From Blepharisma japonicum (taxonomy: Eukaryota > Ciliophora > Heterotrichea > Heterotrichida > Blepharismidae), in NCBI GenBank assembly GCA_949751835.1, contig CATKHK010000046.1, forward strand, positions 186,001 to 250,000: a stretch of DNA of 64,000 nt. Reading direction: 5' to 3'. Positions 5,170-36,932 of this stretch are shown here, in pieces; positions within the stretch are counted from its first letter, which is position 1, and every line of letters starts with the position of its first letter. The position numbers were made by a program, and so were the translations under genes. Under the pieces are notes generated by a model. That model was not told where the DNA came from. It did no database searches and saw nothing but the letters and a program-made list of their open reading frames with translations.

Positions 5170-7233
5170 TTATACTTGTCGACATATAAGACTTTTCATA
5201 TTTCTTATTTGTGAGCTTATTCCTTGTCTATCATCTTCATCAAGATTAAACTCTGACAGCGAACTATCAAACAGGTCGCAATAGCAGTCAAACTCGATCC
5301 CCAGTATCCCTTTAATAGCGTGTGCTGCCCTAAGTTGTCTCCTAAACTCCAAATTAACTTTCCCATTCAGGATTTTAAACATCCCTACCACAATCATTTC
5401 AAAGCTTTCTAACTTTGAATTTTTGAAGTGTTTGTTTAATATTTCACTTGCTAATACTTTTTTGTACAACGATATAATAAATTTGTTTCAGAAATCAATT
5501 CCTCCGTACTTATCAATGATATCTTGCTCTTTAACTTTCGCTATTTTTACGTTGAGAGCCATTTCGTCGAAGTTATCGACGGTTTCTGTGAAGACTTTTC
5601 GTGAGTAGACGAGTCGCTTGTCGTCGTTCATGAGACGGTCTAAATGAGTTGTCGAACGAGATTGGATAAGACGGGGGGAAACGGGGCAAGGGGTAATTGG
5701 CTCTCGTATAGGACATTTGACAAAGTTGTAACTGTTGAGGTAGTCTTGGATGCTTTCTTCTTTATTTAGAGGACTGAGCCTTGTAGGGGACTTTTGAGCA
5801 TTAAGTCTGTCGATTTTTGCGTTGACTTTATTTAGGCGCTCCATTAGATCTTTTTCGGACACGGGATCGTGCTCTATTTTCTTAGGCTTTGTCCTTATTT
5901 TGAAGGGGCATGGCAAGCGGGATTCTTCTTCTTTTATTTCACACAAAGGACTGTCATTGACACAAGATTCTTGACGTCAAAGCTCAGAATCATTGCTGTG
6001 GGTGCTTGATTCTGATCTTTCATACAGATCAGGAGTCCTTGATTTTTCCATTATTACTGTTTTCCTCCTATTCTTTTCATGATCTGCAGGCACCATATAG
6101 TCAACGAAGTGCTCTTTGCATTCCAACAGAAACCAATTGTTGTTCTTGTCCTTGATAAAATCAAGGACAAGCCCTTTAAGTCCATGGTACTTAAACACTT
6201 CTCAGTTCAAAAACTCAACTATTTGATCTACCATCAGCTCGATTTCTGCTATTTTTGCATAACTTTCCATCGCATAGCAGCTTTCCACATCTTTAGTAAA
6301 AACAATGTACTCTTTATTATGATCTTCAGGACCAGAAGTGTCTGTTGAGGATGTAGGAGGCTCATATGAATCATAATTGTGCGTAAACTTTGCTACAGCT
6401 GCAGTAAATGATTTTTTAAAGCTTGATTCTTCACCAGAATGGTCGATTATTGTGAGATGTTTTTTGCTTCCAGGTGTTTTTGAGTTCGGTCTGAATGGGC
6501 AATTTGCTGATTGAGAGACAGGGTTCATCATCCCTGCATTCTTAAAATCTGTTGTCTTTCCTCGCTTGAAGGTCAGGCCTGGAATAATGGTCACGCTTTT
6601 CTTAAGTCTTCTTGATACCTTTTTGCGGTTTGTTATAGTAAAATACTTATTTTTCATGCCTTTCCTCCATAAAACCCTTGTAATTGTGGCAGGATTTGTC
6701 TTGCTTTGGATAAAATACTGCAAAACTGCATGATCTTCTGAAGAATTTCAAAGTTTTTCAGCAATGTCAGCTGAAAAAATAGCAACCACATCTTTGCCAG
6801 GGATTTTATAGCAAAAGGTGGGGAAGTCCGTGTCGTTTTTAACAGTTGTGAGGCTCATGAATTCTTCAAAGGTGCTTTCTTTTGATTGGACGATTTTTTC
6901 TCTTTTAGTTTGAATCATGTATAGCTCAGGGAGATGCTCGATTCTGACAAGACTTGTGGGGATATTCAAACTTAGCTTAGCAGAGTTTGCATATTTTGCA
7001 AGCAGACTGAAGAGACTGATTTCCTGGTGTTGGGAGGTCTTCGGAAGGAGATTGTTCAGCTTGGATATCATGGTGTTGGTTGTGAGATCAGAGTTGGCAC
7101 AGCTCAAGAGGGGTTTTTTGGAAGATTCTGATAGCATGGTCCTTAAATCTTCGGCAAAGTGAATGTATTCATTCTTCTCGGTCTCATTCTGATGAATGTC
7201 ATTCAGGTGCTCTAAAATCTTAGGGAGATCCAT
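5170..7233 (-). CDS. large protein with C-terminal group I truncated haemoglobin domain
   Basis: The single open frame of 687 residues contains at least four TGA codons read as Trp (for example at residue 582). The C-terminal part, about 574-687, matches group I truncated haemoglobins. It has an N-terminal DKYGG element (like DKIGG of TrHbN), Tyr590 in LYKKVLAS (B10 position), Phe603 in KHF (CD1 position) and a proximal-His element RAAHAIKGI with His638 followed by a GIEFD-like turn. Heme binding is therefore plausible, with a role in O2 or NO sensing or chemistry. The first 570 residues are not recognised. They include a basic segment (about 170-230), a short block with the pattern LVLDFIKDKNNNWFLLECK (about 350-375) and a proline/charge-rich linker. 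Free truncated globins are about 120-140 residues, so this is an unusual fusion. The start is the first ATG after AT-rich spacer. The globin call is strong; the overall function is unknown. Confidence 0.8.
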
Positions 7234-8518: not shown

Positions 8519-9559
8519 CTATCTTCTTGGAGGATTTGGTGTAAAATCTCTCCAGTGCATTGAAGGGGCTGGACGATTTCCAAGTAAGTCTTCAATTCGA
8601 GCAAGAATTTCAGGTGTTAATTTTTTCATAACATCTACTGCACCAAGATTATCATCAAGATGATGAGAAGCACTCGCACCCATAATTGCAGTCGTAACAT
8701 CAGGATTTTTGATTACCCAAGAAAGAGCCAGTTGTGCTTGTGAACATCCTAGCTCATCTGCTAAAGTTTTTAATCCGGTTAAAGTTTTAATTGCCGCTTC
8801 TTTTCTGCTTCCAATATATTTGCCAAATCATTGTTTATACATAGCAGAAAAAGGACTGTTTTCGAGTCTTCCAGCAGGAATATTTCCATCATTATATCTT
8901 CCAGATAAAAGTCCTCCACATAAAGGAGACCAAACAGTTGTTCCTAATCCATATTGGTCGAATAAAGGCACATAATCTCTCTCAACAATTCCTCGTTCGA
9001 ACATATGATATTCGCATTGCTCAACAATTGGAGGAATCCATCCATGCTTTTCGCAAATTGCAAAACACTCAGAGATCTGCTGAGGAGTAAAGGAAGAAGT
9101 TCCCCAATAAAACGCTTTATCGTTGTCTATAATTTCATTGATAACTCTGATAGACTCTTTAAGTGGGACTTCATGATCAAATCTGTGAAGATAAAGCACA
9201 TCTACATAATCAAGCTGCATTCTTTCTAAGGAATGATTAATTGCTTGTCTCATCCTTTTGCGACTCAAACCTTGGATTCCGAATCCAGAGGATCTTAACT
9301 TAGTAGTTATAATGAGATCATCTCTATCATATCCTCCTTGCTTAAAATTCCTTCCAAGAATTGTTTCAGCGATTCCGAGACCATAAAACTCAGCTGTATC
9401 AAAAAAATTGACTCCTCGTCTGATGCATTTGTCAACACACTCAAAGTTCCATTGTTCAGTACCATCAGCCCATCCACTCGTCATATTACCAAAGCTGAGA
9501 ACTGAAACTTTAAGTCCTGACCTTCCAAGATATCGATATTCCATTGATTCAGACTCCAT
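8519..9559 (-). CDS. aldo/keto reductase, Kv-beta-like (array copy 1)
   Basis: This encodes a 346-residue NAD(P)H-dependent oxidoreductase of the AKR6/potassium-channel beta-subunit type, with a TIM-barrel fold. Visible hallmarks are the N-terminal YRYLGRSGLKVS, Asp/Tyr of the tetrad in FFDTAEFYGLG, Lys in IITTKL, His in LYLHRFD, and the cofactor-side segments YWGTS, WSPLCGGLLSGRY and GASASHHLDDN. The Trp before FGKYIGSRK is encoded by TGA, while copy 2 has TGG at the same place (KQWYDKHIGSRK), so the two codons are interchangeable here. It is nearly identical to copy 2, so the duplication is recent. The substrate is unknown. It could also act as a channel-associated subunit, but no channel gene for such a partner is visible nearby. 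Confidence 0.95.
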
Positions 9560-10404
9560 TTTTCCTTTATTGATTTATTCTCCCTCAATCCTTGAAGTTT
9601 GTTAAAAATGATTTTCTGCAACAAATATTTTCATAATTATAATTGCCCAATCTAACTTATTTATAAAACAATAAAATTTTCCATTTATAATAATTTTGCA
9701 TTTACTTATTAAATTAAATTAATTATGCATCAATTATATGATTGTTCTAAAAATATTTTCCTAGTCTCTAGTGAGTAAAATTAATATTACTGGATTGAAT
9801 TTTAGTATGCCAGAAATTTCATTGCCAAACATTAGATTAAAAATGTATGTGTATAATAATTTTTCAGAGACTGAATTTTATTATTAAACTGCATAATTTC
9901 AAATATATTTAATTTTCTATAATAATTTCTCATTATAAATTATTCAAATGAGATAAGTCAATTTTTCTATTAATACAAAATTCTGGATTTTCTCTTAGAG
10001 AGGATAGGCTATCTAAAATATTTTAATAATTTATCTAAGACTCTTAATTGCTTAAGTATTCCTTATACAAATATATTATTTGATATCTTTAATTATTTTA
10101 AATAGTTCCAATCTATTATCTGCATCCAATTAGCATATCCAATATAGGCAATAATAATTTATATCCTTCATCCTTAAATATTTATGATGGCTTTTATTAT
10201 TTAAATCCCAAAATGATAAAATCATAAATAAAATTTTCATTATTTGTTTTATAAATAATTTGTTTAAATAAAAATTATGTTGAATTACATTTGGAGTTTA
10301 ATTATATATCAATGAATAAATAAGCCATAGTGAAGCTATAAATATAAATAACTATTAATCGCAATTAATTTGATTCTAAGAGAAATGATAAATACTAATT
10401 AATT
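9560..10404. other. intergenic, reductase array spacer 1/2
   Basis: The left end (upstream of copy 1) resembles the upstream flank of copy 2 (TCTCCCTCAA..CCTTGAAGTTTG, then a related AT-rich stretch). The right end is the duplicated 3' flank of copy 2. No gene is seen. Confidence 0.6.
10000..10404. repeat. duplicated 3' flank of reductase copy 2
   Basis: This is the partner of the repeat at about 8230-8518. Together with the shared 5' flanks it defines a duplication unit of about 1.9 kb (the stop codons of copies 1 and 2 are 1886 bp apart). Confidence 0.7.
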
Positions 10405-11445
10405 CTATCTTCTTGGAGGATTTGGTGTAAAATCTCTCCAGTGCATTGAAGGGGCTGGACGATTTCCAAGTAAGTCTTCAATTCGAGCAAGAATTTCAGG
10501 TGTTAATTTTTTCATAACATCTACTGCACCAAGATTATCATCAAGATGATGAGAAGCACTCGCACCCATAATTGCAGTCGTAACATCAGGATTTTTGATT
10601 ACCCAAGAAAGAGCCAGTTGTGCTTGTGAACATCCTAGCTCATCTGCTAAAGTTTTTAATCCGGTTAAAGTTTTAATTGCCGCTTCTTTTCTGCTTCCAA
10701 TATGTTTGTCATACCATTGTTTAAACACAGCAGTAAATGGGCTGCTTTCGAGTCTTCCAGCAGGAATATTTCCATCATTATATCTTCCAGATAAAAGTCC
10801 TCCACATAAAGGAGACCAAACAGTTGTACCTAATCCATATTGGTCGAATAAAGGCACATAATCTCTCTCAACAATTCCTCGTTCGAACATATGATATTCG
10901 CATTGCTCAACAATTGGAGGAATCCATCCATGCTTTTCGCAAATTGCAAAACATTCAGAGATTTGCTGAGGAGTAAAGGCAGAAGTTCCCCAATAAAAGG
11001 CTTTATCGTTGTCTATGATTTCATTGATTACTCTGATAGACTCTTCAAGTGGGACTTCAGGATCAAATCTGTGAAGATAAAGTACATCAACGTAGTCAAG
11101 CTGCATTCTTTCTAAGGAATGATTAATTGCTTGTCTCATCCTTTTGCGACTCAATCCTTGGATTCCGAATCCATAGGGGTTTAACTTAGTAGTTATAATG
11201 AGATCATCTCTATCATATCCCCCTTGCTTAAAATTCCTTCCAAGAACTGTTTCAGCAATTCCAAGACCATAAAACTCAGCTGTATCGAAAAAGTTGACTC
11301 CTCGTCTGATGCATTTGTCGACACACTCAAAGTTCCATTGTTCAGTACCATCAGCCCATCCACTCGTCATATTACCAAAGCTGAGAACTGAAACTTTAAG
11401 TCCTGACCTTCCAAGATACCGATATTCCATTGATTCAGACTCCAT
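10405..11445 (-). CDS. aldo/keto reductase, Kv-beta-like (array copy 2)
   Basis: This 346-residue member has no TGA in its frame, so it reads through even with the standard code. The tetrad residues are present (DTAEFYGLG, TTKL, LYLHRFD). It differs from copy 1 at few positions, mainly in the TTKLNPYGF loop and the region after PAGRLES (FTAVFKQWYDKHIG). The loop after TTK varies most between copies, which fits variation near the active site. The start is MESESMEYRYLG, shared by all copies. It is transcribed in the same direction as the rest of the array. Confidence 0.96.
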   Translation of the reverse strand: MESESMEYRYLGRSGLKVSVLSFGNMTSGWADGTEQWNFECVDKCIRRGVNFFDTAEFYGLGIAETVLGRNFKQGGYDRDDLIITTKLNPYGFGIQGLSRKRMRQAINHSLERMQLDYVDVLYLHRFDPEVPLEESIRVINEIIDNDKAFYWGTSAFTPQQISECFAICEKHGWIPPIVEQCEYHMFERGIVERDYVPLFDQYGLGTTVWSPLCGGLLSGRYNDGNIPAGRLESSPFTAVFKQWYDKHIGSRKEAAIKTLTGLKTLADELGCSQAQLALSWVIKNPDVTTAIMGASASHHLDDNLGAVDVMKKLTPEILARIEDLLGNRPAPSMHWRDFTPNPPRR

Positions 11446-12103
11446 TTTTCCTTTATTAATTTACTCTCCCTCAACCCTTGAAGTTTGTTAAAAATGGCTT
11501 TCCGCAGCAAAAATCCTCATTATTATACTTGCTCGATCTTAACTGATATTATAAAATAGTAAAATGTTAATTTATAATCAAAGTATTTTGCATTTGCTTA
11601 ATAGATTCAAATTAATTATGGATCAAAATGAAATTATATTATTGTTTTAAAAATATTATTCTAGGCTAGGTGGGTGAAATAATTTTACTGGATTAAATTC
11701 TCGACTTCAGCATACAAAGAATTTTCATTGCCAGAAATTAGAATAAAAATGTATGACTCCTATAGTTTTTCAGAAACTGAATTTTCATATTACGTTGCAT
11801 GGTTTCAAATTTATTAGATTTTCTATCATTATTTCTCATTAAAACCTACTCAAAGTGAGATAAATCAATTTTTCTATTAATTACAAATTTCTGGATTTTC
11901 TCTTAGCATTTAAAGAAGATGGCAAGCTATTAAAATTATAAAAATGCCAGTTTTAATAAAAATACGACTTTCAGCATATTCTTTTTATAATCTATATCAA
12001 AGCTATAAAGAAATGTTTATCAGTATTAGTCCTTCTATTATTAGCATTAATGTAAGACTGCATTATTGATTATGGGGGTTTAATATACCTAATTTTATTG
12101 ATT
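11446..12103. other. intergenic, reductase array spacer 2/3
   Basis: The spacer is AT-rich. The first 150 bp match the 5' flank of copy 1. No ORF, RNA or repeat beyond that is seen. Confidence 0.6.
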
Positions 12104-13144
12104 TTATCTTCTTGGAGGATTTGGCGTGAAATTCCTCCAGTGCATTGATGCTGTTGGCCTATTACCAAGAATATCCTCAATTCTTGCAAGAATATCTGGT
12201 GTTAATTTTTTCATAACATTAACTGCGCCAAGGTTGTCATCAAGGTGACTAGGCGAGCTAGCTCCCATAATTGCAGTAGACACATCCGGATTTTTAATTA
12301 CTCATCCTATTGCTAATTGAGCTTGAGAGCAGCCTAATTCATCTGCTAAAGTTTTTAATCCAGTCAAAATTCTAACAGCTGCTTCTTTTCTACTTCCAAT
12401 ATATTTTTCATAGCAATCCTTAAAATAATCAAGAAATGGACTATTTATTAGTCTTCCTTCAGGAATATTTCCATCATTATATTTTCCAGACAAAAATCCT
12501 CCACATAAAGGAGACCAAACTGTAGTTCCTAGCCCATATTGATCAAAAACAGGAGCATAATTTCTTTCAAACATTCCTCTTTCAAACATATGATATTCAC
12601 ATTGTTCGACAATTGGAGGGATCCATCCATGATTTTCGCAAATTGCAAAACACTCAGAGATTTGTTGAGGTGTAAAATCAGATGTACCCCAATAAAATGC
12701 TTTATCATTATCTATAATTTCATTAATTACTCTTATAGATTCTTCAAGTGGGACTTCTGGATCAAATTTATGAATATAGAGTACATCAACATAATCAAGC
12801 TGCATTCTTTCTAAAGAGTGATCGATTGCTTGTCTCATCCTTTTACGACTGAGCCCTTGTAATCCGAATCCAGATGGATTCAGCTTTGTAGTGATAATAA
12901 GATCATCTCTATCATATCCTCCTTGCTTTATATTTTTTCCAAGAATTGTTTCAGCAACTCCAAGGCCATAAATTTCAGCAGTGTCAAAAAAGTTGACTCC
13001 ATTTCGTATACATTTATCTGTGCATTGAAAATTTCAATCCTCAGAACCTTCTGTTCAGCTGCTTGTCATATTTCCGAAGCTGAGTACTGAAACTTTTAAG
13101 CCTGACCTACCAAGATATCGATATTCCATAGACTCGGTTTCCAT
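12104..13144 (-). CDS. aldo/keto reductase, Kv-beta-like (array copy 3)
   Basis: The frame of 346 codons plus TAA stays open when TGA is Trp. TGA codons are seen in EDWNF near the N-terminus and in AIGWVIKNPDV. It keeps DTAEIYGLG, TTKLNPSGF and LYIHKFD, so the catalytic Asp, Tyr, Lys and His are all present. It is more diverged than copies 1 and 2 (MFERNYAPVFDQ, FLSGKYNDGNIPEGR, TASMHWRNF tail). The start is METESMEYRYLG. The length is identical to the other intact copies. Confidence 0.93.
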
Positions 13145-13503
13145 TTTTGCTCTATTTTATTTCTCCTATTTCTAAAGTTTTGTTAAAAAATGGAAATTCG
13201 CAACATATCTAAATTATATTTTTATACTTACTATACTTTCATATGATTTTGGCTAATCCATTAATTAAATTAAATAAAATTAGTTAAAAAAGCCTTAGCA
13301 AATAAGTAATTAAATTACACCCCAAAAATAATAAAATATAATAGCTCATGAAGAACTTGCTTAAGTTTTTGGGGAAATATTTATTAAACTAAAATACTTG
13401 TATGCTTGTATTGGATTCATTGACAAGCTCGTCTAAGATTAACTTTGAAAGTTATTTTAATATCTAATCATTTTTTAGGAAATATAATTAATGCTTCCTA
13501 ATT
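13145..13503. other. intergenic, reductase array spacer 3/4
   Basis: A short AT-rich spacer in which nothing else is recognised. Confidence 0.6.
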
Positions 13504-14544
13504 TTATCTTCTAGGAGGATTTGGTGAGAATGTTCGCCAGTGCATTGATGGAGTTGGCCTATTACCAAGCAATTCTTCAATTCTAGCAAGAACTTCTGGG
13601 GTCAATTTTTTAATAACTTCAATAGCGCCAATATTATCATCCATATGACTAGGAGCACTGGCACCCACAATAGCAGTAGATACATCAGGATTTTTAATTA
13701 CCCATGCAAGTGAAAGCTGTGCTTGAGAGCAGCCTAGTTCATCTGCTAAAGCTTTTAATCCGGTCAAAGTTTTAACAGCATCTTCTTTTCTACTCCCAAT
13801 AAATTTATCATACCTTTGCTTAAAAAAGTTAGCAAATGGATTGCTTTCAAGTCTTCCAGCTGGTATGTTTCCATCATTATATCTTCCAGATAAAAGACCT
13901 CCACATAGAGGTGACCAAACTGTAGTTCCTAGCCCATATTGATCAAATAATGAAACATAGTCTTTTTCAACAATTTCTCTTTCAAACATGTGATATTCGC
14001 ATTGCTCAACAATTGGAGGAATCCATCCATGTTTTTCACAGATTGTGAAACATTCAGAAATTTGCTGGGGAGTAAAGGCAGAAGTTCCCCAGTAGAACGC
14101 TTTATCATTTTCTATGATTTCATTAATAATCCTAATTGTCTCTTCAAGAGGAACTACAGGATCAAATCTGTGAAGATAAAGTACATCAACATAGTCAAGT
14201 TGAAGCCTTTCCAAACAGTGATTAATTGCTTGTCTTATCCTCTTGCGACTTAGGCCTTGAATCCCAAATCTACCAGGATTTAACTTAGTTGTTATAATAA
14301 GATCGTCTCTATCCCATTCTCCCTGCTTTAAATTCTTTCCTAATACTGTTTCAGCAGCTCCAAGACCATAACCTTCAGCAGTATCAAAAAAATTGACACC
14401 TCCTCTTATGCATTTATCCATACATTGAAAATTTCACTCTTCAGCTCCTTTATCCCAACTACTTGTCAGATTTCCAAAGCTTAAAACTGAAACTTTAAGT
14501 CCTGATCTTCCAAGATACCGATATTCCATTGACTCAGACTCCAT
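13504..14544 (-). CDS. aldo/keto reductase, Kv-beta-like (array copy 4)
   Basis: This has 346 residues with the start at 14544 (MESESMEYRYLG). The N-terminal part needs TGA as Trp (EEWNFQCMDKC). The tetrad context differs slightly: FFDTAEGYGLG has Gly where the others have Phe or Ile, followed by the conserved Tyr. TTKLNPGRFG and LYLHRFD follow. The substrate loop is FANFFKQRYDKFIGSRKED. All conserved motifs are intact, so it is probably functional. Confidence 0.93.
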
Positions 14545-15182
14545 TTTTACTTTATCATTCATCAATAAATTTAATAATAAAAATATGAGATGAGAAATCT
14601 GAAAAGAATTTCTAAAGCAGTTATTTAAAAATTTTTATTCCAGAAGGAAAGCTTTTTATTTTCATTAGCTAATTTAGACTTTGTTAGCTTTCTAAGGCTT
14701 TTTATATAAGTTTGCATTGGATCTCTAGCAAACTAAAACTAAGATTTAATAAAGTCTATAAAGTGAATGCACTTTAAAGATAAGCTATGAGTACTCAACT
14801 TTTAAAAATTTAAAATTATTTCTAAAAAAGCCTAGATAGTGCTCAAATACAAAATAATACTAATTAGAATAAGGCAAGAATAAATGATAATTTTTTATTT
14901 AACAAAGAAAGAAAAAGCTATCGGAATTTTGGTCTAACACCCCTATTTTTAAATTTAATATTTTTCTATTTGCGATTATTTCCTTTATAGTAAATGGCTT
15001 CATAATAATTTACTATTAGCATTAAATAATCTTATATCTTGCTATAAAATTAATATTAGTCATAAGAAAAACTTAAGTTAATTAAAAGAAGTTTGATATA
15101 TATGAAGCTAAGCCAAACAATTTTATTAAAGAAATGCAATATCATATTTTTATAACTCAATTACTCAGAAGTATATTATTAA
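14545..15182. other. intergenic, reductase array spacer 4/5
   Basis: About 640 bp of AT-rich sequence with no supported gene. Confidence 0.6.
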
Positions 15183-16223
15183 TTATCTTCTTGGAGGATT
15201 TGGTGTGAAATTTCTCCAGTGCATTGATGGAGCTGGTCTATTATCAAGAAGCTCTTCAATTCTTGCTAAAATCTCTGGAGACAATTTGTCTAAGACATCA
15301 ACAGAGTTAAGATTATTATCAAGATGATGAGGAGCACTAGCGCCCATAATAGCAGTAGAAACATCAGGATTTTTAATTACCCATGCAAGTGCAAGTTGTG
15401 CTTGGCTACATCCAAGCTCATCTGCAATAGCTTTTAGCCCATTTAGAGTTCTTAGGGCTGCTTCTTTCCTGCTTCCAATATATTTATCCCAATATTGTTT
15501 CATCATTGGAGCAAATGGACTGCTTTCAACTCTGCCAGGAGGAATAGTTCCATCATTATATTTACCAGATAAAAGGCCTCCACACAAAGGAGACCAAACC
15601 GTAGTTCCTAACCCATATTGGTCGAATAAAGGCACATAATCTCTCTCAATAATATCTCTCCTAAACATATGGTATTCGCATTGCTCAACAATTGGTGGAA
15701 TCCATCCATGTTTTTCGCAAATCGTGAAACATTCAGAAATTTGTTGTGGAGTAAAATTAGAAGTTCCCCAATAAAACGCTTTATCATTGTCAATAATTTC
15801 ATTAGCAATTCTAATAGTTTCCTCAAGTGGAACTTCAGAGTCAAACCTGTGAAGGTAAATTACATCAATATAGTCGAGCTGCATTCTTTCTAAAGAGTGG
15901 TCGATAGCTTGTCGAAGTCTTTTGCGGCTGAGACCTTGAATTCCAAACTGTGAAGGGAAAAATTTAGTTGTAATAATGAGATCATCTCTATCATAGCCTC
16001 CTTGTTTTATATTTCTACCAAGAACTGTTTCAGCTATTCCAAGACCATAGAATTCAGCTGTGTCAAAAAAATTAACACCTCTTCTAATGCATTTGTCAAC
16101 ACATTGGAAGTTCCACTCTTCAGTTCCATCAGCCCATCCACTAGTCATATTTCCAAAACTAATGACAGAAACTTTAAGCCCTGATCTTCCAAGGTAACGA
16201 TATTTCATTGATTCAGCCTCCAT
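15183..16223 (-). CDS. aldo/keto reductase, Kv-beta-like (array copy 5)
   Basis: This intact frame of 346 residues has no TGA. It begins MEAESMKYRYLG and belongs with copies 6 and 7 by the shared TTKFFPS loop and by KRLRQAIDH in place of KRMRQA. The catalytic context is DTAEFYGLG, TTKFF, IYLHRFD. Copies 5-7 thus form a second subgroup in the downstream half of the array, which suggests at least two rounds of duplication. Confidence 0.96.
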   Translation of the reverse strand: MEAESMKYRYLGRSGLKVSVISFGNMTSGWADGTEEWNFQCVDKCIRRGVNFFDTAEFYGLGIAETVLGRNIKQGGYDRDDLIITTKFFPSQFGIQGLSRKRLRQAIDHSLERMQLDYIDVIYLHRFDSEVPLEETIRIANEIIDNDKAFYWGTSNFTPQQISECFTICEKHGWIPPIVEQCEYHMFRRDIIERDYVPLFDQYGLGTTVWSPLCGGLLSGKYNDGTIPPGRVESSPFAPMMKQYWDKYIGSRKEAALRTLNGLKAIADELGCSQAQLALAWVIKNPDVSTAIMGASAPHHLDNNLNSVDVLDKLSPEILARIEELLDNRPAPSMHWRNFTPNPPRR

Positions 16224-16705
16224 TTTCTAATTACACATTTTCTCCTTTGGACATAAAATATGTTTGATAGTAAAATTTATTATTAAAAGTGATGGATCAC
16301 ATGAATATTATAATTCAATAACTTTAATTGAGATAAGATTAGTTGCCTGAATAAAAGAGCATAATTTATTTGCATATTTGATCTTTTATACATATCAAAT
16401 TTATGTTTAAAGACAGAGCTAATTAATTAACTTTTAATTATTTTATTGAAATTTAATATATTCTAAGAAAGTATTTTGGAAATTTTTATTATTCTAAGAT
16501 TTGGTAAACACTTACCACTAACTAATAAGAAAATTTCCTCTCTTTATCTTATCTATAGTAAAAATCTTAAAAAATAAATAACCTAAAACTTAATATTTAA
16601 TGCATCATTTTAAGAAAAGCTTCAATTTGAAACTTAGATTTCAATAAAATTATTCTAAAGATGCATTTGGCATATTAAAATTAGTCACCATCATAAAATT
16701 TATTT
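16224..16705. other. intergenic, reductase array spacer 5/6
   Basis: AT-rich spacer; no gene is seen. Confidence 0.6.
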
Positions 16706-17747
16706 TTATCTTCTTGAATGATTTGGTGAAAAAGTTCTTCAATTCATAGATGGTATTGGCCTATTGTTAAGGATATCTTCAATTTTCAACAAAATTTCTG
16801 GAGATAGCTTGTCTAGCACTTCAATTGAACCAAGATTATCATTCATATGGTCAATGCTGCTAGCACCCATAATAGCAGTAGATACATCTGGATTTTTAAT
16901 TACTCATGCGAGTGCAAGTTGAGCCTGAGAACAGCCCAGGTCATCTGCCAAAGACTTTAACCCATCTAAACTTTTAAGAACGGCTTCTTTTTTGCTTCCA
17001 ATATATTTGTCTCACTTTTGTTTAAATTGTGAAGCAAATGGGCCGCTTTCAAATCTTCCAGCAGGAATATTTCCATCATTATATCTTCCGGATAAGAGAC
17101 CTCCGCACAAAGGAGACCAAACTGAAGTTCCTAAGCCATATTGCTCAAATAAAGGCACATAATCTTTCTCGATAATTTCTCTTTGGAGCATATGGTATTC
17201 GGATTGCTCAACAATTGGTGAGACTCATCCATATTTTTCACAAATTGCGAAACATTCAGAAATTTGTTGAGGTGTAAAATTAGAAGTTCCTCAGTAGAAT
17301 GCTTTGCCACTATCTATAATTTCATTAATAATTCTTATGGATTCTTCAAGTGGTGTTTCTGGGTCAGGTCTATGAAGATAAATTACATCAGCATAATCAA
17401 GCTGCATTCTTTCTAAAGAATGATCAATGGCTTGTCTAAGTCTTTTGCGACTAAGGCCTTGAATTCCAAGTTTAGAAGGAAAAAATTTAGTTGTAATTAT
17501 AAGATCATCTCTATCATAGCCTCCTTGTTTTATATTTTTGCCAAGAACCGTTTCAGCAATTCCAAATCCATAAAATTCAGCTGTATCAAAAAAGTTAACA
17601 CCTCTTCTTACACACTTTATCTACGCATTGAAAATTTCACTCTTCAGTATCATCAGCCCATCCACTAGTCATATTTCCGAAGCCTAGGATTGAAACTTTA
17701 AGCCCTGACCTTCCAAGGTGCCGATATTTTATTGACTCAGTCTCCAT
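16706..17747 (-). pseudogene. aldo/keto reductase copy 6, frameshifted
   Basis: The whole reductase can be followed from METESIKYRHLG to the tail SPNHSRR, with DTAEFYGFG, TTKFF and YLHRPD conserved and several TGA codons as Trp. The length is 1042 bp where its neighbours have exactly 1041. The extra base lies at about 17615, in the codons after CVDK (expected CVRRGVNFF), and it shifts the frame about 45 codons after the start. A 15-nt intron cannot correct a +1 shift. No other stop is seen, so inactivation is recent or the base is an assembly error. It also has more unusual substitutions than the other copies (EQSEYHMLQRE, EKYGWVSPIV). Confidence 0.8.
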
Positions 17748-18114
17748 TCCTCTTTATAATTCTGGGCAATGTAAAATCTTTTTAGGATATGATTTATTAT
17801 TAAAATTGATGGATCATAAATAATTCAGAATATTTAGCTATTTTATTAATACAAATAAATATCTTTCTTTTATTTTGGTATTGTACATTTTATATGCAAG
17901 GAGTATGCATGTGTATTCGCACAAGTATGAAGACTCCTCATGTGGGAAATATTTTAGAATGAAGAGATGACTTTATATGCCAAGGAATTCATGCAATATA
18001 CAAGACATTATAATATAGCATATTATAGCAAACAACAAGAATTTAATTAATATTATTAGTTACAATTAATTTAAATGAGAGTTTAAAAAAAATTAAAGTC
18101 AATAATTAATTAGT
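17748..18114. other. intergenic, reductase array spacer 6/7
   Basis: AT-rich spacer; no gene is seen. Confidence 0.6.
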
Positions 18115-19155
18115 TTATCTTCTTGGAGTATTTGGTGAGAAATTCCTCCAATTCATTGATGGTGTTGGTCTGTTTCCAAGGAGATCTTCAATTCTTGATA
18201 AAACACCAGGGGATAATTTGTCAATCACTTCAACTGAGCCAAGATTGTCTTCAAGCTGAGCAGTGGAACTAGCTCCAGTAATAGCAGTTGATACATCAGG
18301 GTTTTTCATCACCCATGCAATAGCTAATTGTGCTTGGCTACATCCTAATTCGTCTGCAATAGTTTTTAATCCCGTTAAAATCTTGACTGCTGCTTCTTTT
18401 CTGTTCCCAATATATTTATCCCATTTTGGTTTAGTAAATGAAGCAAATAAGCTATTGTCAAATCTTCCTGCCGAAACATTTCCGTCGTTATATCTTCCAG
18501 ACAAAATTCCTCCACACAAAGGAGACCAAACGCTTGTGCCTAATCCGTATTGATTAAACGAAGGAACATAGTCTCTTTCAACAATTTCTCTTTCAAACAT
18601 GTGGTATTCGCACTGCTCTACAATGGGCGGGATCCATCCATGTTTTTCACAAATTGTGAAACATTCAGAAATTTGTTGCGGAGTAAAATTAGAAGTTCCC
18701 CAATAGAATGCTTTATCGCTGTCTATAATCTCATTAGCAATTCTAATAGATTCCTCAAGTGGAGTTTCAGGATCAAATCTATGCAGGTAAATTATATCAA
18801 CATAATCGAGCTGCATTCTTTCTAATGAGTGGTCGATCGCTTGTCGGAGCCTTTTGCGACTGAGGCCTTGAATCCCAAATCTTGAAGGGAAAAACTTAGT
18901 TGTGATAATCAGATCATCTCTATCATAACCTCCTTGCTTTATATTTCTGCCAAGAATTGTTTCGGCAACTCCTGAGCCGTATAATTCAGCAGTATCAAAA
19001 AAGTTAACTCCTTTTCTGATGCATTTATCAATACATTGAAAGTTTCATTCTTCTGCTCCATCAGCCCAACCGCTTGTCATATTTCCAAAACCAAGAACTG
19101 AAACTTTGAGCCCTGATCGTCCAAGGTAGCGATATTTCATCGACTCAGTCTCCAT
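18115..19155 (-). CDS. aldo/keto reductase, Kv-beta-like (array copy 7)
   Basis: This has 346 residues, starting METESMKYRYLG at 19155, with TGA as Trp in EEWNFQC. The tetrad region is DTAELYGSG, TTKFFPSRFG and IYLHRFD. It carries changes in otherwise constant places (GILSGRYNDGNVSAGR, GASSTAQLEDN). As the most upstream gene in transcription order, it has the long AT-rich spacer 19156-19714 as its 5' region. Confidence 0.93.
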
Positions 19156-34826: not shown

Positions 34827-36932
34827 ATGGAAGTCAAGCAAAACTGGTGGAAAGAAGAAGTTGAAACTGCTTACAAAGTATTAATAATAACATCTGCCAT
34901 GGGTGTTGGATCAGCTATGCTGAGGGTTGTTAAAGAACTTCTAAATCCTACAAACTCTCATTGGACAACTTTTATACCTTTCACTCTGTCATATATATTG
35001 GTTTGAGCATTGATAACTTGCGCTTCAAAATCGAGTAGCAAACATAAATGCTTAATTTTGATATTCATGGCAGAGTTTTATAATATCGCTTTGTCTTATT
35101 ATTCTAAAAGACTTATACAAGGCTCTTTTTTTGAAATGTTTGCATTTATTCTTAGAGCCCAGTATCAATTTCCTATAACACATACAAAATTCGGATACTC
35201 TTGTATTATATTTACTCATATGTATATTTGGCATTATGAAGCTTATGAGGATTTTTCGAAATTAGTTTTTCATACACTAATTTTTCTTTTTACCTGTGGG
35301 GTTTTTTGAACTCATTCCTTAAAAATTTCATATGAACATTTTGCTTATAGGAATGAACTTGAAATTACTGCGAACCGATTAAAAACAATTACACAGTCAC
35401 TTTTTGATGGAATAGTTATTGTTTCATTATCAGGTGAAATTAAATTTTATAATGAAAAGTCTTTACACCTATTGAACATAGAAGAAAGCAGTTTAAAAAA
35501 TCTACTTTGTGAAATTCAATATATAAATAAAAAAAAATTTTCACATTTTAGTGTTACAAATCTGCTATGAGATGATATTAATTATCTTCTTAAAAATCCA
35601 AATGCCCAAGAAAATGAACTAGGAATAACATTATCTGCTACCAATAACCTTGAATGAAAAGCTTGCAATACAATTTGGGAAGGACAGCCTGCACTATTTC
35701 TTTCAATTAAAAATGCAAATCACATTATAATTTTAGAAGAAGATATTGCTAAAGAAAACCTAAAAAACTTAATACTGCGCTCTGCATCCCATGAGCTAAA
35801 AACACCCCTGAACTCAATTCTTCATTTTACTAATGAACTTCTTGAAAATTTTAGTTTAAAAAGCGAAGAAATAAAGAAAAAACTAATGACTATATCAGTC
35901 TCAAGCAAATTGATGGTGTCTTTGATAAATGACCTTCTTGACTATTCAAAAATTTTAGCAGAAGAACTTAAGATCAATAAAATACATTGCGACATTCGAA
36001 GTATTATTAGCAATACTTGCGATTTAATTCATCTACAAGCTGAACGAAAAGGTATTTCGGTAATATGCAGAATTGATCCAATATTGCCCTCACAATTTTT
36101 TATTGACCCCATGAGGTTTAGCCAAATCCTTTTAAATTTGGCAACAAATGCAGTAAGGCACACTTTGAAAGGAAAAATTGAAATATCTTGTGTTATGACA
36201 CATAAAAATAAATTTAAATTTTCCGTCGAAGATTCAGGAATTGGGATAGAAAAAAGTGCATTAGAAAAAATGTTCAAAAATTTAAATTCCCAAGCAATGC
36301 CTTGAATTGATCTAAAAGGGAATGGGCTTGGACTATATATTTCAAATTTGTTGATTAAGCTTATGGGTGGAAAAGGAATTAAAGCCAAATCGGTGCTTGG
36401 CAAAGGATCGATTTTTTATTTTTCAATCAATTGTAATGGGTTAAGCATAGCAGACTGCTTTGATTTTAAAATTAATAGCAGTGAGCTTGAAGAAGATGTG
36501 TCCCCTGAAAAATCATTCAGAATGCAAAGTTTTAAGGAAATTGAAAAAGGTTCAGTACTAATAGTTGATGACGTTGAATTTAATCTTGAAGTTTTAGCTA
36601 CAATTTTGAAAGAATATCAAATTTCTTTCATAGAAGCTTCAAATGGGCAAATTGCTGTTGATAAAGTTATGGAGAAAGATGCTGCTGGGATACCATTTAA
36701 AGCAATAATAATGGATTGCAATATGCCTGTAATGGATGGATGAAATGCAGCAAAAATCATAAATGCATATTATAAGGAAAATAAAATTAAGCACCTCCCA
36801 AATATTATTGGGTATTCTGCATATGACTCTGATGAAGATAGAAAATTGTGCTATGAAAACGGAATGGTTGATTTTTTACAAAAGCCATGCAAATCAGAAG
36901 ATTTGATAAGAACAATTATAAAATATTTATAA
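34827..36932 (+). CDS. hybrid histidine kinase 1
   Basis: This 701-residue two-component sensor carries its own receiver. It begins MEVKQNWWKEEVE, the WW-x-EE start shared by several copies. Residues of about 15-175 hold about six hydrophobic helices. A PAS-like sensor (ITQSLFDGIVIVSLSG, about 185-290) follows. The HisKA box RSASHELKTPLNSI has the phospho-accepting His322. The HATPase has the N box ILLNLATNAVRHTLKG, G1 EDSGIGI and G2 GNGLGLYIS. The receiver has acidic IVDD, phospho-acceptor Asp630 in IIMDCNMPVMDG, GYSAY and the QKPC lysine. Many Trp codons are TGA (for example WDDINYLL). It belongs to subfamily A with copies 4, 6 and 8 (RHT-KGKIEISC, DG/NGW-A-K). Confidence 0.95.

Follow-up and report, generated by a model that had tools for sequence, protein, structure and literature searches.

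The window, a 64,000-nucleotide stretch of the Blepharisma japonicum genome (45.2 Mb assembly, 224 contigs), carries on its minus strand, at 5170–7233, a gene (P0001) whose single frame of 687 residues runs from Met to a TAA stop with TGA read as Trp. Four TGA codons lie within this frame, at W162, W344, W419 and W582. Among 48 aligned paralogs, Trp was present at the position of W162 in 45 and at that of W582 in all 48, and W344 and W419 showed no conservation across the alignment. Over the 48 paralog frames, Trp was encoded by 127 TGA and 137 TGG codons, and the stop codons were 37 TAA and 11 TAG. The conserved TGA-encoded Trp residues and these codon and stop counts indicated that reading TGA as Trp is sound. 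In Blepharisma stoltei, UGA encodes Trp and introns are mostly of 15 and 16 bases, according to excerpts of PMC9942806. A 15-base stretch with an in-frame TAA inside, GTAAAATTTATATAG, interrupts the CDC123 gene of the B. japonicum genome (near 1600–1614 of locus L058); judging from its GT...AG sequence, it is probably a tiny intron.

The protein begins with an N-terminal domain (residues 55–385; 6079–7071, on the minus strand like all features given below), which is common to a wider family and has a possible, faint relative in the docking-complex subunit dDC4. It is followed by a poorly conserved linker (residues 386–555; 5569–6078) and, at the C-terminus, by a truncated globin domain together with the residues that lead into it (556–687; 5173–5568), the globin being recognized by sequence profiles and by a low-confidence structural model, and weakly by Pfam.

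The sequence-only reading had proposed that a group I truncated globin closes the 687-residue protein, and this was borne out by several lines of comparison. In a phmmer search of the PDB, P0001 matched the Tetrahymena group 1 truncated haemoglobin over residues 568–664 (E 0.0066), and a profile built from the 48 paralog C-termini matched the same protein (3aq5) with an E value of 7.1e-8. At E ≤ 10 this profile found 25 distinct PDB sequences, of which 24 were globins with the names group 1 truncated haemoglobin, HbN, cyanoglobin, THB1, THB11, LI637 and haemoglobin, and we assume that those plainly named haemoglobins are truncated globins; the lone non-globin was AFG3-like protein 2 (E 0.82). 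When 1,429 local frames were searched, the family C-terminal profile identified the free truncated globins L005 (4.2e-17), L007 (3.4e-15) and L008 (2.2e-14) as well as L001 and L002, with E values of 4e-17 to 2e-8 over the five, and these free globins themselves exceed the Pfam Bac_globin cut-off.

Scans of whole P0001 against NCBIfam and Pfam returned no useful family, and Bac_globin was absent from the Pfam scan even at E ≤ 10. The last 136 residues scored 14.7–14.8 bits against Bac_globin (E 0.036), such that the match anticipated near residues 560–687 is present but lies under the curated cut-off of 21. At E ≤ 0.05, Bac_globin was found in 29 of the 48 paralogs cut to the C-terminus and in 9 of the 48 as whole proteins, and one paralog (C12:58547) scored 24.6 bits, above the cut-off. 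Structure prediction, likewise suggested at the outset as a way to see the 2-over-2 fold, gave a mixed outcome: the blind single-sequence AlphaFold2 model of the last 132 residues was of low confidence (pLDDT 57.8, pTM 0.54), yet Foldseek returned haemoglobins in all of its best 20 rows (best 6cii, TMq 0.66, probability 1.00), with TMq values of 0.55–0.68 and a best E value of 0.025, none being ≤ 0.001. Together, the sequence comparisons confirmed the C-terminus of P0001 as a group I-type truncated globin, and the low-confidence model agrees with this.

The best PDB sequence match of this domain is the group 1 truncated haemoglobin of Tetrahymena pyriformis (3aq5–3aq9), a free protein of 121 residues, whereas the P0001 globin is the C-terminal part of a fusion. 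The two aligned across the heme pocket without gaps at an offset of 565, which placed Tyr590 (5464–5466), Phe603 (5425–5427) and His638 (5320–5322) on the Tetrahymena residues Tyr25, Phe38 and His73 (3aq8 for the Tyr and the His), positions that we take to be B10, CD1 and the proximal His. All three residues had been named from the sequence alone, and they proved to be retained in 45, 48 and 48 of the 48 paralogs, respectively. Conservation was similarly high at Tyr576-Gly577-Gly578 (5500–5508), where the Tyr is found in 48 members and the two Gly in 46 and 47. On the distal side, Phe611 and Val615 of P0001 stand where the Tetrahymena globin has Gln46 and Gln50, the distal Gln residues according to the titles of mutant structures. 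Column 611 holds Phe in 28 of the 48 and a gap in 20, leaving the helix E register unsure for those 20 members; with the same reservation on register, a distal Gln of the Tetrahymena type (E7/E11), a usual feature of group I truncated globins though not one that defines them, occurred at column 615 in none of the 48. Since the distal Gln appears to be replaced, ligand handling would be expected to differ from that of the Tetrahymena protein. Given the conserved pocket residues, it is most likely that this globin carries heme, with His638 as the point of attachment.

The fusion is not confined to the window. A tblastn search of P0001 against its own genome matched 74 places (one gene may give several), and the C-terminal 132 residues matched 62; at 54 of these the match is to a family member (E ≤ 3.2e-24), the other 8 being more distant globins. 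At 51 of the 54 family places, one long frame spans both halves. To enter the alignment of 48, a frame had to reach 560 residues counted from its first Met and to be uncut by a locus end, a choice by length that makes the presence of both halves in the 48 partly a selection effect; the three spanning places that were left unaligned (C36:35533, C34:239322 and C34:229100) lie in frames of 688–753 residues cut by locus ends. The places that lack a long frame are C13:102279 (132 residues), C95:140378 (325 residues) and C51:314631 (split into two frames). The genome contains about fifty paralogous fusions, many of them in two head-to-tail arrays of about 16 copies each, on C34 and C51.

The median pairwise identity of the 48 members was 0.32 over the whole protein; taken by part, the globin reached 0.50, the N-terminal domain 0.32 and the linker 0.19. 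Because one open frame is kept across a hardly conserved linker, the two halves appear to form one protein, and a separate globin transcript is unlikely, since 51 of 54 places retain the frame in spite of so low a linker identity. The proposal that a long N-terminal part and a globin share one ciliate gene was thereby upheld. In the 12 closest pairs, dN was 0.15–0.24, and dS was saturated in 7 and 2.1–3.1 in 4; the one pair with unsaturated dS gave a dN/dS of 0.165/0.65. On average, dN lay far below dS in the closest pairs, indicating purifying rather than diversifying selection. When the 48 members were scanned with Pfam, seventeen non-globin families were each found in one member; SIN1, at E 0.0003, was set aside as a chance match, as no second member of the 48 shared it. 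A pattern scan of viral contigs gave 44 pattern matches and no relatives.

Eight sister pairs in the tree connect C34:212821–247861 with C51:276707–314026 in the same order and in opposite orientation (array loci L029–L033 and L036–L040), and further contig pairings are C21/C36, C99/C35 and C95/C145. The paired arrays look like the product of a segmental or whole-genome duplication. Degenerate, stop-ridden copies close in sequence to P0001 were seen at C12:613768 (of 615521), C90:1513, C99:5378, C135:2, C108:4528–6317 (L048) and C95:147978–149270 (L042). Several of them lie near contig ends, and the stops in these copies occur at a variety of residues rather than at Gln only.

In the N-terminal domain, six residues (Q172, R186, W189, F341, F359 and W367) are invariant in the 48 paralogs. 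Three of these fall in residues 172–189 (6667–6720), and F359 and W367 belong to a D(E)-F-...-W-...-C-K-E motif at residues 358–374 (6112–6162). A search of the genome with residues 56–390 found distant places with long frames beyond the family itself, and the N-terminal part is by sequence a member of a wider family in this genome. Nine distant members (L049–L057) were taken for comparison, and in a 14-sequence alignment that includes them a Q, an R, a P, a D and an F are invariant.

Searched against the PDB, the profile of these 14 sequences gave 'distal DC4 / ODA dDC4' as its best match (E 0.01; next 0.61), and the same protein came first (E 0.0055; next 0.38) with another profile, of 34 sequences, that overlaps this one. 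This protein, chain 5K of 9e78, is the dDC4 subunit of the trypanosomatid outer-dynein-arm docking complex. The match is short, with 18–19 bits and i-Evalues of 0.027 and 0.15 for the best stretch, and rests on a single stretch, profile 98–138 against chain 121–161, to which residues 172–189 of P0001 contribute. An LQkFI..K....RVvW stretch is common to the N-terminal domain and dDC4; the stretches IP.T and D..W.LL.C occur in the same order in both, each singly below significance. dDC4 was not listed in searches with P0001 alone (phmmer), with the full-length family profile or with L056, and in the phmmer results for L057 a protein called TbDC65 came last of four (E 0.92), outranked by unrelated proteins, the best of which had an E value of 0.039. 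These data are suggestive only of a kinship between the N-terminal domain and dDC4. The earlier statement that the first part of the protein matches nothing holds for the family libraries but not for the profile comparison, with its faint dDC4 match.

In the parts of PMC7617938 that concern dDC4, this subunit is LtaP31.0090 (tied to 9e78 chain 5K by name), its structure resembles ATP-grasp domain proteins, it sits on the DC1/2 coiled coil in contact with the heavy chain of the outer arm, and cells that lose it swim more slowly; the text mentions no globin, unlike the ciliate fusion. The docking-complex pair consists of pDC4 and dDC4, as given in an excerpt of PMC11971395. A single-sequence model of the N-terminal domain had a pLDDT of 33.7, too low for structural matches to carry meaning. 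The metal-binding pattern of ATP-grasp proteins is D-x12-[DE]-x-N, and we take the motif at 358–374 to have ATP-grasp-like spacing, with residue 373 as the third ligand position. In the 48 paralogs, D358 is found in 45, D or E at 371 in 33 and Asn373 in only 2, such that the pattern is not preserved. If the dDC4/ATP-grasp relation holds, the N-terminal domain would have lost a catalytic residue. CDC123, an idea that came from weak PDB rows (E 0.73–1.0) and visual likeness, was rejected as a relative of this domain: hhalign against the genome's own CDC123 exon gave a probability of 0.2 and an E value of 0.27 (a single-sequence comparison and a weak test), like the ten unrelated window proteins used as controls (probability 0.1–0.2, E 0.31–0.54). 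This negative comparison and the poor model of the N-terminal domain count against an ATP-grasp relation.

The nine distant members differ in what follows the N-terminal domain. By the family profile, L049 (43.7 bits) and L054 (42.9 bits) carry a C-terminal globin, both with the proximal His, and L053 has a globin-like C-terminus of 18.8 bits with Asn in the proximal-His column; the remaining six gave no globin at E < 1e-3 with this profile, and L051 and L052 end ahead of the globin. In a globin tree of 60 rows, examined for a single origin of the fusion, the 48 family globins formed one group (support 97/98), and the distant fusions L049 and L054 fell outside it, beside free globins, at support values of 84/25 and 87/72 and in placements that carry long-branch warnings. 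A tblastn search with L054 gave alignments that cover the two halves of several members of the family, such as one over residues 65–696. Three free truncated globins, L001, L003 and L004, stand in a row within 2.2 kb (C44:211724–213912). A KYGGDPFW stretch is common to the free globins L005 (C20) and L007 (C56) and the fused family, and is not shared by the L001–L003 type.

Two known kinds of chimeric globin bear comparison with the fusion. Androglobin (Adgb) is, like P0001, a large chimeric protein that includes a globin, and Adgb is tied to cilia: excerpts of PMC8175508 place Tetrahymena Adgb in the C1b/C1f projection of the central apparatus. A portion of PMC13331133 describes a calpain domain in Adgb and, for metazoans, a permuted order of its globin. 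By comparison, the P0001 globin is in ordinary order, and Pfam found no calpain family in P0001 or the 48 members. Bacterial globin-coupled sensors also combine a heme globin with another domain in one chain. Their globin is N-terminal and of the 3-over-3 type and is joined to a known output domain, whereas that of P0001 is C-terminal and truncated, and no output family was matched in P0001 or the 48 members. A globin fusion of this build was unreported in the open-licence PMC literature searched, and for B. stoltei the excerpted text of PMC9942806 has one mention of a bacteria-like globin. The fusion is a chimeric globin, unusual in scale, with a front part of faint kinship.

We tentatively read this protein as a heme-based sensor in which a loose linker joins a docking-type N-terminal scaffold to a truncated globin of group I type, plausibly in cilia; we give this reading a little less than an even chance. 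Heme would be held by the globin via His638, and a ligand (O2 or NO) or a redox change at the heme would alter the hold of the N-terminal domain on a partner. The N-terminal domain would itself be an adaptor of ATP-grasp-like build, kin to DC4 but devoid of catalytic activity, and its site of action might be on or near the ciliary axoneme. A sensor joined to an adaptor is preferred because the heme pocket is invariant and the N-terminal domain is constrained and probably non-catalytic. About fifty copies would be odd for a core axonemal part, which counts against the ciliary docking component of this reading.

The strongest rival, which we rate as unlikely though deserving serious weight, is that the globin is an enzyme or a scavenger (an NO dioxygenase, or a store of O2 or NO) for which the N-terminal domain is a mere anchor without signalling. 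Globins commonly carry out NO dioxygenation, Tyr B10 and the proximal His are retained, and the genome encodes free truncated globins as well; on the other hand, a reductase domain was found in none of the 48 members (Pfam, E ≤ 0.05), and the constraint on the N-terminal domain, with its six invariant residues, fits a mere anchor less well. Less probable still is that the globin fold serves as a protein-protein module in which heme is dispensable, as the Asn that replaces the proximal His in the globin-like C-terminus of L053 might suggest; the proximal His and Phe CD1 of all 48 paralogs point instead to heme. We regard as improbable a diversifying family, related to recognition or mating, in which tandem expansion carried the globin along incidentally: the arrays on C34 and C51, the variable linker and the degenerate copies elsewhere would accord with it, whereas the averages in the closest pairs are purifying. 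That two adjacent genes were read as one, or that the globin resemblance arose by chance, is scarcely credible, for although P0001 by itself falls under the Pfam cut-off, 51 of 54 places keep the long frame, and profile and model both identify a globin.

The interest of the protein lies in the small number of chimeric globins among eukaryotes; androglobin, the only one whose place in the cell is clear, is ciliary. A second chimera, unrelated to Adgb, present in about fifty constrained copies in a single ciliate and with a hint of kinship to a dynein-docking protein in its front part, would offer a system in which to study heme sensing in protists, whether in cilia or in the cytoplasm. The N-terminal domain may in addition represent a ciliate sequence relative of a docking subunit that is called trypanosomatid-specific in the excerpted text of PMC7617938. 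A bolder version, to which we attach a low likelihood, is that heterotrich cilia contain many DC4-like docking adaptors, each with a heme globin at its end, through which oxygen, NO or the redox state adjusts the outer dynein arms, the paralogs marking different cilia or different positions along a cilium; if true, this would be a heme sensor inside the dynein docking machinery that arose apart from androglobin.

Elsewhere in the window, two further clusters of similar genes were observed. Seven adjacent minus-strand frames of similar sequence occupy 8519–19155, and the two that were scanned are aldo/keto reductases by Pfam. At 34827–57625 there are about eight similar frames, two of which were scanned and proved to be hybrid histidine kinases with a receiver domain, making this a sizeable cluster of that type for a ciliate.
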